Below, in pieces: positions 32,943 to 36,413 of a stretch of 64,000 bases of DNA. The position numbers and the translations under genes are program-made. Location of the stretch: NCBI RefSeq assembly GCF_004355225.1, contig NZ_CP037933.1, positions 3,534,001 through 3,598,000 of the forward strand. Reading direction: 5' to 3'. The notes beneath the pieces were generated by a model. It ran no database searches. It was not told the origin of the DNA and saw only the letters and a list, made by a program, of their open reading frames with translations. How positions within the stretch are numbered: the first letter of the stretch is position 1; every line of letters starts with the position of its first letter. The stretch is from Flavobacterium nackdongense. GTDB lineage: Bacteria > Bacteroidota > Bacteroidia > Flavobacteriales > Flavobacteriaceae.

Positions 32943-35900
32943 ATGGAAAGTTTAAAACGGTATATTCCTGAAAATAAAGTTCGAATTGTAACTGCTGCCT
33001 CGTTGTTCGATGGCCACGATGCGGCGATCAATATTATGCGAAGAATTATACAGTCAACAGGAGTCGAGGTCATACATTTAGGTCACGACCGCAGTGTACA
33101 GGAAGTGGTAAATACTGCTATTCAGGAAGATGCCAATGCTATTGCTTTGACTTCCTATCAAGGCGGTCACAATGAATATTTCAAATACATGCGTGATTTA
33201 CTGTGCGAAAAAGGAGCCTCTCATATCAAAATTTTTGGTGGCGGAGGTGGAGTCATTCTGCAATCTGAAATCGAAGCCTTACATGCCTACGGAATTACCA
33301 GAATTTATTCGCCAGACGATGGTCGAGCAATGGGTTTGCAGGGAATGATCGATGATTTGGTAAAGCAATCCGATTTTTGCCCCCAAAGCCCCGAAGGGGG
33401 AGTTCCTGATATTGAAATTCGATTACGAAATAGAGAAGTTAATACAATTGCAAGATTAATTTCTTTGGCCGAAAATAATCAAGAACAATTTCACCAGTTA
33501 TTCGCTGCTCCCCCTTCGGGGGCGGGGGGGGCTGTTCTAGGAATTACCGGAACCGGTGGCGCAGGAAAATCTTCTTTGGTCGATGAATTAGTGCGTCGTT
33601 TTCTGATGGACTTCCCTGAAAAAACCATTGGAATCATTTCAGTAGATCCCTCCAAAAGGAAAACAGGAGGTGCATTACTTGGCGATAGAATTCGGATGAA
33701 TGCCATCAATAATCCCAGAGTTTATATGCGTTCTTTGGCCACTCGACAATCGAATTTGGCTTTGTCCAAATACGTTGCCGATGCGATTCAGGTCATCAAA
33801 GCAGCAAAATACGATCTTATCATTCTTGAAACTTCCGGTATTGGACAATCCGATACCGAAATCACAGAGCATTCCGATGTTTCTCTTTATGTGATGACGC
33901 CAGAATTTGGTGCCGCAACCCAATTGGAAAAAATCGATATGCTCGATTTTGCTGATCTGGTTGCTATCAATAAATTCGACAAACGAGGTTCACTCGATGC
34001 TTTACGCGATGTGAAAAAACAATACCAACGCAACCATAATATGTGGGATGCAGATTTAGATACCTTACCTGTTTTCGGAACCATCGCTTCGCAATTCAAT
34101 GATCCTGGGATGAATACCTTGTACAAGGCGGTAATGAACATAATTCAAGAGAAAACAGATTCCGATTTGAAATCTTCTTTTGTGATTTCGAATGAAATGA
34201 GCGAGAAAATATTCGTGATTCCGCCACACCGAACCCGTTATTTATCTGAAATTGCTGAGAATAATCGAAAATATGATGCTACGGCATTGACACAAGTGGA
34301 AGTAGCTCAGAAATTATATGGTATTTTCAAAACGATCGAATCTGTTTCGGGAAAAACCCCTGAATTGAACAAAGCGGGAATTAATGAAGATTCAGTTTTA
34401 CCAACAGTTTTGGAATTGGAGAAAGCCGGTGCTACCGAAAATAAAATTTTTATCAATTTATTACTCAATCAATTCGACAAGTTGAAAATGGATTTGGATT
34501 CCTATAATTGGGAAATCATCCTGACTTGGAACGAGAAAATCAAATCGTACAAAGAACCATTTTATACTTTTAAGGTTCGAAACAAAGAAATTAAAATTGA
34601 AACGCACACCCAATCGCTTTCGCATACCCAAATTCCGAAAATTGCTTTGCCAAAGTACCAAGCTTGGGGTGATATTTTACGTTGGAATTTACAGGAAAAC
34701 GTACCGGGAGAATTTCCTTATACAGCTGGTTTGTATCCTTTTAAAAGAGAAGGAGAAGATCCGTCACGTATGTTTGCTGGAGAAGGAGGTCCCGAAAGAA
34801 CTAATAAACGCTTTCATTATGTGAGTGCCGGTTTACCTGCCAAACGCCTTTCCACGGCTTTTGATAGCGTCACTTTATACGGAAATGACCCTCACATTCG
34901 CCCTGATATTTACGGGAAAATTGGCAATGCCGGAGTTTCTATATGTTGTTTGGACGATGCAAAAAAGTTGTATTCTGGTTTCGATTTAGTCGATGCCATG
35001 ACTTCGGTGAGTATGACTATCAATGGACCGGCACCGATGCTTTTGGGCTTTTTTATGAATGCAGCTATCGATCAACAATGCGAAAAATACATTATCGAAA
35101 ATAAGTTAGAGCATTTAGTTGATTCAAAATTAACTGAGATATATGAATCTAAAGGCTTAAGACGACCAAAATACCAAGGAGAAATTCCTAAAAGCCCCTC
35201 CTTCGGAGGGGTTGGGGAGGCTCTAGGGTTGTTGCTTTTGGGCGTGACGGGAGACCAAGTTTTGCCTTTGGCTATTTATAATGAGATCAAAGCCAAAACC
35301 CTTTCGAATGTTCGAGGAACAGTTCAGGCGGATATTCTCAAAGAAGATCAAGCACAAAACACTTGCATATTTTCGACAGAATTTGCTTTGCGATTGATGG
35401 GCGACGTGCAGGAATATTTCATTTCGAAAAAGGTGCAAAACTTTTATTCGGTTTCCATTTCGGGTTATCATATTGCCGAAGCAGGCGCCAACCCAATTTC
35501 GCAATTGGCATTCACACTTTCTAATGGTTTTACATATGTAGAATATTATTTGAGTCGTGGAATGAACATCAATGATTTTGGGCCCAATTTATCGTTCTTT
35601 TTCTCCAACGGAATTGATCCAGAATATGCGGTAATTGGTCGTGTAGCCCGTAAAATTTGGGCGAAAGCTTTGAAATACAAATATGGAGCCAACGAAAGAG
35701 CCCAAATGTTGAAATACCACATTCAGACTTCGGGTCGCTCGCTGCATGCTCAGGAAATCGATTTTAATGATATTCGAACTACTTTGCAGGCTTTGTATGC
35801 TATTTATGATAACTGCAATTCCTTGCACACCAATGCCTATGACGAGGCTATTACTACTCCAACAGAGGAAAGTGTGCGTCGTGCGATGGCGATTCAGTTG

Positions 35901-36413
35901 ATTATTAATAAGGAATTAGGACTGACCAAAAACGAAAATCCAATTCAAGGTTCCTTTATTATAGAAGAGTTGACCGACTTGGTAGAAGAGGCCGTTTTGC
36001 TGGAATTTGACCGAATTACCGAACGGGGTGGCGTTTTGGGTGCGATGGAGACCATGTACCAAAGAAGCAAAATCCAAGAAGAGAGTTTGTATTATGAAAC
36101 GCTGAAACACACCGGCGAGTTCCCCATAATTGGAGTGAATACGTTCTTGAGTTCTAAGGGTTCTCCGACGATTATTCCGGCCGAAGTGATTCGTGCCACC
36201 GAAATGGAGAAAAAATATCAAATTACCATGTTGGATAATTTGCATAAAACCCATCGAGAAGCTGTCGATTTGAATTTGAAAAAACTGAAAGAAGCTGCCA
36301 TTCAAAACGAAAATATATTTGAACATTTAATGGAAGCCACCAAGGTTTGTTCGTTAGGGCAAATCACTACTGCACTATTTGAAGTTGGTGGTCAGTATCG
36401 AAGAAATATGTAA
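32943..36413 (+). CDS. icmF: fused isobutyryl-CoA mutase (B12 domain-MeaB GTPase-mutase)
   Basis: This 1156-residue enzyme interconverts isobutyryl-CoA and n-butyryl-CoA (or related acyl-CoAs) with adenosylcobalamin. Order: B12-binding domain at 1-140 with the axial histidine H25 in FDGHDAAIN; MeaB-like G-protein chaperone with P-loop [12 protein letters not shown] near 199-212; then the mutase TIM barrel with [19 protein letters not shown] and [19 protein letters not shown], the IcmF signature rather than methylmalonyl-CoA mutase. Three short in-frame inserts, at about residues 145-153, 189-196 and 750-760 ([22 protein letters not shown]), are encoded by GC-rich palindromes and look like inserted repeats tolerated in linkers. 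The gene is alone. Confidence 0.93.
33379..33402 (+). repeat. in-frame GC palindrome 1 in icmF
   Basis: GCCCCCAAAGCCCCGAAGGG and two following G/A bases encode the insert PQSPEGG in the linker after the B12 domain. Its reverse complement is nearly identical to the element at 33508. Confidence 0.75.
33508..33532 (-). repeat. in-frame GC palindrome 2 in icmF
   Basis: CTCCCCCTTCGGGGGCGGGG and further Gs encode PPSGAGG just before the P-loop. It is the element of 33379 in opposite orientation, about 130 bases away. Confidence 0.75.
35191..35222 (+). repeat. in-frame GC palindrome 3 in icmF
   Basis: The stem GCCCCTCC-TTCG-GGAGGGG followed by TTGGGGAGG encodes [10 protein letters not shown] inside the mutase domain, between helix IPK and LGLLLLG. 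It has the same pyrimidine arm, TTCG loop and repeated purine arm as the two upstream copies. Confidence 0.8.

Follow-up and report, generated by a model that had tools for sequence, protein, structure and literature searches.

A dispersed three-part repeat with the layout of potential intrastrand triplex elements, carried in frame by icmF and other genes of Flavobacterium nackdongense

The window analysed here, a stretch of 64,000 nucleotides from the genome of Flavobacterium nackdongense, contains icmF, and three short G/C-rich hairpin elements lie in the reading frame of this gene. The features concerned are the following.

32943-36413, + strand: icmF (fused isobutyryl-CoA mutase), one open frame of 1156 aa that hosts all three elements
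33379-33402, - strand: element 1, GCCCCCAAAGCCCCGAAGGGGGAG, in frame in icmF, peptide CPQSPEGG, imperfect central arm
33403-33507, + strand: linker native to icmF that separates elements 1 and 2; the MeaB domain's N-terminal helix is part of it
33508-33533, + strand: element 2, CTCCCCCTTCGGGGGCGGGGGGGGCT, in frame in icmF, peptide PPSGAGGA
35193-35222, + strand: element 3, AGCCCCTCCTTCGGAGGGGTTGGGGAGGCT, in frame in icmF, 10-residue peptide

The icmF product has Pfam matches to B12-binding, MeaB and MM_CoA_mutase, and its best match among solved structures is the fused isobutyryl-CoA mutase 4xc6. A preliminary description of this DNA, made from its letters, had located the three in-frame hairpins to within 2 bases of the positions given above. 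It had also named GAA as a loop, which is incorrect, the first loop being TTC (or cTTCGg), and had regarded elements 1 and 2 as near-identical and opposite in orientation; their orientations are indeed (-) and (+), but the two sequences are only related: in element 1 the second loop is CTTT and the central arm is shorter by one G. The tail of element 1 (the end formed by its third strand, described below) is at 33379, facing the B12-binding side at its conserved end (..DLVKQSDF), and the tails of elements 2 and 3 each adjoin a conserved protein block, element 2 being placed immediately before the P-loop strand of the G-protein domain, as had been proposed. The idea of a dispersed repeat that is tolerated in frame in protein linkers is borne out by recurrence of the DNA itself: element 3 has an exact copy in hemC, with 37 identical bases in common, and the 26-mer of element 2 is found again in a trpG-like gene. 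Besides icmF and the trpG-like gene of this genome, the variant CTCCCCCTTCGGGGGCGGGGGGGGCT, in which the usual TTA is replaced and which is read as PPSGAGGA, is present in frame in L297 (genome G128) and L309 (genome G161), which are different genes of different species.

The elements are built of a C-arm, a 3-base loop, a purine arm, 2-4 further bases and a purine third strand that mirrors the G-arm. Site 3 of icmF is parsed as CCCCTCC-TTC-GGAGGGG-TT-GGGGAGG, the polA element as CCTTCCCC-TTC-GGGGAAGG-TTG-GGATGGGG, and the ribosomal-spacer element as CTCCCCC-TTC-GGGGGAG-CTG-GAGGGGG. The mirror relation was assessed on 118 distinct elements taken from portions of three genomes; of these, 39 are informative in that they have an A in a purine arm of at least 6 bases, and an A was counted as mirrored when A or T stands opposite it. 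The third strand is a perfect mirror in 32 of these 39, compared with 20% when arms were re-paired with the tails of other elements, and it matched 57 of 59 arm adenines, compared with 74% in the re-paired control; a direct-repeat reading of the third strand fits only 5 of the 39. The preliminary description had likened the elements to Rickettsia palindromic elements, a comparison that is not supported: with its mirror-image third G-strand the build differs from a plain palindrome and points instead to the potential intrastrand triplex (PIT/TM) repeats. The published TM_ECO stem is 8-9 nt long; variants with arms of 8-10 bp exist here, and the arms of the commonest copies, at 5 bp, are below the stem minimum of 6 nt given for a published finder. 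Since the arms of these commonest copies are uniform C5/G5, which fits the layout but is uninformative, the class placement rests on the longer variants. The corresponding E. coli pattern, TM_ECO, is given as CCCTCNCCC-N3-6-GGGNGAGGG-N3-GGGNGAGGG, with TTA as the second loop of type A (PMC4666352). Judged by the order and symmetry of its strands, the family has the class-II PIT/TM layout, the triplex itself being putative; for the E. coli motif, in vivo DMS footprinting gave no support for a stable triplex (PMC4666352).

The 11-base core CYCCTTYGGRG has 79 matches in the genome and 3 for the reversed control, which agrees with the expectation that the same DNA words would recur elsewhere, and CCCCTTCGGGG has 32 matches in the 4,217,227-bp genome and none in its reversed control; the commonest copy is TTCCCCCTTCGGGGGTTAGGGGGCT. 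Within the window, CCTTCGG occurs 14 times against 3.79 expected, and for the 23-base core of element 3, when as many as 3 mismatches are allowed, there is a single occurrence against 0.00 expected. An anatomical finder applied to an even sample of 40 x 20 kb together with the window (864 kb) called 22 elements, against 1 when the sequence was reversed; in the window it called the three of icmF and no others. The same core is present at least once in 139 of 150 genomes of the genus, with counts from 0 to 79; about 27 of the 150 have at least 20 matches, and G014, G079, G128, G161 and G162 have 65-71. Element calls were based on one pattern and on a hand-made finder run on stretches around the pattern matches, so that the count of diverged partners is too low; beside several lone copies a decayed partner can be recognized by eye.

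Alignments of icmF covered 29 relatives (57 of 60 genomes matched) and, separately, 80 loci plus L044, two sets that may overlap. Most homologues have unrelated residues at these variable linker sites, and elements at sites 1 and 2 were called in only 6 of the 80 loci (L074, L075, L080, L082, L106 and L138), as well as in L044, which equals L080 over the compared stretch; the predicted lack of the elements in other icmF genes is therefore largely confirmed. Both members of the pair were called in five of the six loci and only the first in L082, where the second is visible by eye; no further element was called elsewhere in the gene in these six. With our own locus included, all 6 complete icmF pairs run (-) then (+). 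In Salegentibacter (L106) and in a Bacteroidia MAG (L138) the stems are unlike those of our genome and the third strands are altered to match, and sites 1 and 2 are not private to this lineage, contrary to what had been supposed, other genera having different elements there. Nor are the insertions simple ones with exact boundaries. At site 3, where no element was called in any of the 80 loci or the 29 relatives, approximately 10-15 native bases (the EGNNG codons) are replaced, with a net gain of 18 bp, and at sites 1 and 2 the length of the linker is close to that in element-free homologues with a type B linker. Because the DNA at 33403-33507 is homologous to that of the relatives, it is not inserted DNA. 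Many other Flavobacterium have an unrelated, element-free icmF linker (type A). Our icmF departs from the type A gene L076 mainly in the linker, and over much of the remaining gene it matches L076 as well as it matches the type B gene L074; thus, the linker has a separate history. Between 33354 and 33560, linker types A and B do not track overall icmF similarity, as if the segment had been exchanged.

Eleven of the 76 element calls in the genome fall within ORFs and are over 60 bp away from each end: three in icmF, two in polA, two in hemC, one in the gene for RNase HII, one in that for a lipoyl-domain acyltransferase, one in a presumed type I specificity subunit and one near the start of a 609-aa putative outer-membrane receptor. 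Gene names rest on Pfam or PDB matches or, where there are none, on the sequences themselves. The polA pair, at approximately aa 308-316 and 350-358, lies between the Pfam matches for the 5'-3' exonuclease (to 268) and the 3'-5' exonuclease (from 369) and brackets a conserved stretch, KKSNEDQFDLFGF, and the gain in length is below that of one element. Among 29 relatives, polA has a decaying (+) copy in L246 (G028) and L247 (G067), recognized by eye, and a different (-) copy nearby in L262 and L265, called by the finder. The acyltransferase copy (approximately aa 166-173) is likewise placed between Pfam matches, E3_binding (to 160) and the catalytic domain (from 212), and the hemC and RNase HII copies fall within a Pfam domain match. 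In hemC, of which our genome has both pair members, a single (-) copy is found among 29 relatives in L332 (G014) and L333 (G066), with a net gain of 33 bp relative to L338; this is roughly the length of an entire element and would be compatible with clean insertion as well. Copies are in addition read as N-terminal extensions of hemW- and hutU-like proteins, both names being backed by Pfam, and of what we take to be trpG-, dinB-, dnaE- and glycosyltransferase-like proteins. In-frame copies account for 10 of 29 calls in G161, some of them in apparent isoleucyl-, leucyl- and valyl-tRNA synthetase genes as we read them, and for 3 of 29 in G128.

The copies are ordered and oriented in a regular manner, the tail being turned to constrained sequence and the head to the spacer. 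Neighbouring calls up to 250 bp apart run (-) then (+) in 24 of 25 cases in our genome (3 of the 24 being the copies of one ribosomal spacer), in 8 of 8 in G128 and in 6 of 8 in G161; the three exceptions in our genome and G161 are same-strand neighbours, and a (+) then (-) order was not found among these cases. After removal of 8 ribosomal-operon and 11 internal calls from the 76, 57 calls were analysed for their distance to ORFs. These were taken automatically from the first ATG with a minimum of 100 aa, which makes start distances approximate. In 30 of the 57 the tail is no more than 10 bp away from the start or stop of an ORF, compared with 8.5% under random placement and orientation in the same spacers, and within -45 to +10 of an ORF boundary in 39, the other 18 being outside this range; the head is found in neither range (0/57). 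In G128 the tails are so placed in 15 of 23 cases and the heads in 0 of 22 (null 8.4%, with 30 of 66 pattern matches covered), and a weaker bias was obtained for G161, with 6 of 15 tails and 0 of 17 heads (null 6.0%, 30 of 67 covered). By hand, one ribosomal copy was placed approximately 8 bp past the 3' end of the 23S rRNA, with its tail towards the 23S, and the pair in the tRNA-Ala/23S spacer is not against mature RNA ends, being approximately 86 and 125 bp off. For all 7 in-protein copies tested, conservation is higher over the 8 residues next to the tail than over the 8 next to the head (mean 0.86 vs. 0.39), and this holds for 5 of 5 without hemC, whose two head-side values of 0.00 reflect residues that have no counterpart in the relatives. 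This test left out 8 of 81 rows at icmF sites 1-2 (the element-bearing rows and L100, in which site 1 has apparently decayed, by eye), none at site 3, 5 of 29 for polA and 3 of 29 for hemC.

It is tempting to speculate, though with more doubt than confidence, that these placements follow a directional rule, in which the tail rests against constrained sequence (a start, a stop, an rRNA end or a conserved block) and the head faces dispensable DNA, the element acting in a polar manner to remodel or replace the DNA next to its head, as far as what selection defends. As the placement recurs at starts, stops, one rRNA end and protein blocks, and on either transcription strand, a cause at the level of DNA rather than RNA would be expected. 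If true, the rule would explain why pairs bracket spacers, why different lineages have used the same IcmF linkers repeatedly and why local instability is reported near such motifs.

Descriptions of PIT/TM repeats in bacteria go back more than twenty years, the earlier work reportedly including that of Hoyne and Maher in 2002, and to our knowledge they have no accepted function or mode of spread. The E. coli family resembles ours in its C-arm, short loop, G-arm, 3-base second loop (TTA, type A) and second G-arm, in being G/C-rich and dispersed with copy numbers that vary strongly between relatives, and in forming some inverted pairs, 5 in E. coli K-12 (Holder et al. 2015, PMC4666352). On the other hand, the E. 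coli copies are always intergenic, show no preferred distance to ORFs and have 9-nt stems (PMC4666352), whereas here 11 of 76 calls are inside ORFs, core genes have copies in frame, the tails adjoin constrained sequence and many stems are only 5-8 bp. REPs and REPINs are likewise hairpins of 20-40 bp that form inverted dimers and are in some cases inside genes (PMC3733652; PMC6006769). Our family differs from them in its mirror third strand, in its strong tail-to-gene orientation and in that no repeat-flanked RAYT was seen in the genome; the GTAG or CGTC end tag of REPs is absent from the consensus, which by eye ends in TTCC.. and ..GGGGGCT. We know of no mirror third strand in REPs. Rickettsia palindromic elements are kept in frame within protein genes, essential ones included, and we are not aware of a mirror third strand in them either. 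Ours are similarly dispersed palindromes in frame in protein genes (icmF, polA, hemC and others); they are set apart, by description rather than by sequence, in being shorter and in following the tail rule. Genes with RPEs are mentioned in PMC3733652 in the context of intragenic repeats. Given a PIT-like anatomy, and as no cognate RAYT was seen in this genome, both Rickettsia elements and REPs fit poorly.

Several other explanations can be weighed against these data. That the G/C-rich codons are ordinary, lineage-specific Pro/Gly linker residues and palindromic by accident would accord with the variability of the sites, at which most homologues have unrelated residues, but this is hardly credible, because identity extends over 37 bases of DNA with hemC and 26 with the trpG-like gene, the same DNA yields different peptides in its two orientations, the core has its 79 genome matches, and the elements of other lineages keep the three-part symmetry at the DNA level. 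Functional signals at gene boundaries, acting in mRNA end protection, stop-start coupling or transcription control, with the in-frame copies as strays, would account for tails that adjoin stops and starts. Four spacers between pair members were folded, and such spacers can form a long RNA stem, with z of -8.10 for an operon spacer (which we take to be metH-metF), -5.67 for the icmF pair and -3.04 for a trp spacer; for the argC-argD-like spacer, however, z is only -1.62. RNA pairing across a pair is possible, but alone it does not explain the intragenic copies. Order and orientation are identical inside proteins, copy number ranges from 0 to 79 across the 150 genus genomes, and neither promoter nor terminator activity was seen for the PIT motifs of E. 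coli (PMC4666352); an origin as boundary signals is thus unlikely.

Quite unlikely, too, is that these are REP- or REPIN-type elements moved in trans by a RAYT (TnpA-REP), with the (-)/(+) pairs as REPINs or as the inverted ends of a MITE. Close inverted pairs are the usual arrangement (24 of 25 neighbouring calls), intragenic REPs have been reported, some in genes for DNA synthesis and repair (PMC3733652), and the RAYTs of Bacteroidetes include subclass 2.4 and subclass 2.6, which has atypical structures at its flanks (PMC6006769). The genome also contains seven Y1_Tnp genes (L067-L073, at 2309408, 729955, 2505237, 2420923, 3651416, 682182 and 3304352), but no element of the family was called in the seven loci of 3.2-3.4 kb around them in this one genome, and mobilisation by RAYT was rejected since no cognate gene was seen. 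The near flanks of these IS200/RAYT-like genes each bear their own, different palindromes; in L068, tandem CAATTCAAGGCTGRGGG units lie downstream of the gene. Insertion of the whole of 33379-33533 as one unit (MITE or REPIN) was rejected because the intervening DNA is native in icmF and contains the conserved KKSNEDQFDLFGF in polA, and the replacement of target bases at icmF site 3 also stands against this reading. The data do not support local templating between the two members of a pair, as partners are no more alike than shuffled ones: the mean edit distance is 6.65 in our pairs and 7.00 (sd 0.43) after shuffling, with 102 of 500 shuffles as low (162/500 in G128 and 173/500 in G161).

Taken jointly, the data are best explained by a dispersed family of the PIT/TM type that has spread without a dedicated transposase and survives only where it is tolerated, to which we assign a probability of roughly 0.7. 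The anatomy, the dispersal, the orientation and the lack of a cognate RAYT among the seven Y1_Tnp genes argue for this explanation, as do the exchange of native bases at icmF site 3, the small gain in polA and the native DNA between the pair members in icmF and polA. Weighing against simple versions of it are the dissimilarity of partners, the 18 of 57 copies off the ORF boundaries, the weaker bias in G161, the tRNA-Ala/23S pair, the 33-bp gain in hemC and the E. coli footprint. Copies would most likely arise when replication or repair goes wrong at the folded single strand, through stalling, template switching and small flanking deletions. Selection would then spare only open-frame copies in spacers and flexible linkers, with the unstable head side away from constrained DNA, and this instability of the head flank may account for the orientation. 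The IcmF loops would be a tolerated by-product rather than an adaptation. The interpretation offered in the preliminary description is, as a whole, partly supported.

The PIT/TM class is already known; the tail rule, the in-frame copies in core genes and the reuse of linkers by elements whose third strands match may be new. In the open-access literature, no in-frame PIT repeats and no tail rule were found among the matches listed, and searches with repeat strings gave, among the matches listed, nothing on such repeats in Flavobacterium. Coding copies in polar placement offer a handle on function and spread, because alignments allow them to be dated and one flank is predicted by the rule to be unstable. 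They also represent a route by which repeat DNA gives core enzymes short Pro/Gly peptides, and annotated N- or C-terminal peptides of this type should be regarded with caution, as they can be repeat-derived.

Two further observations were made. The gene-start copies at 153969, 159966, 429656, 430952, 1273214, 2599375 and 3359150 (L205, L207, L214, L226 and L234) have, by eye, a second hairpin upstream of the form CCTAYT-(loop with ACCCC)-ARTAGG, the arms of which vary in step (CCTATT/AATAGG, CCTACT/AGTAGG) and the loop of which could pair with TTAGGGG of the repeat. In addition, three matches to the Flavo-1 RNA (Rfam RF01705) were found, at L220:10361-10436, L220:3701-3783 and L205:5431-5573.
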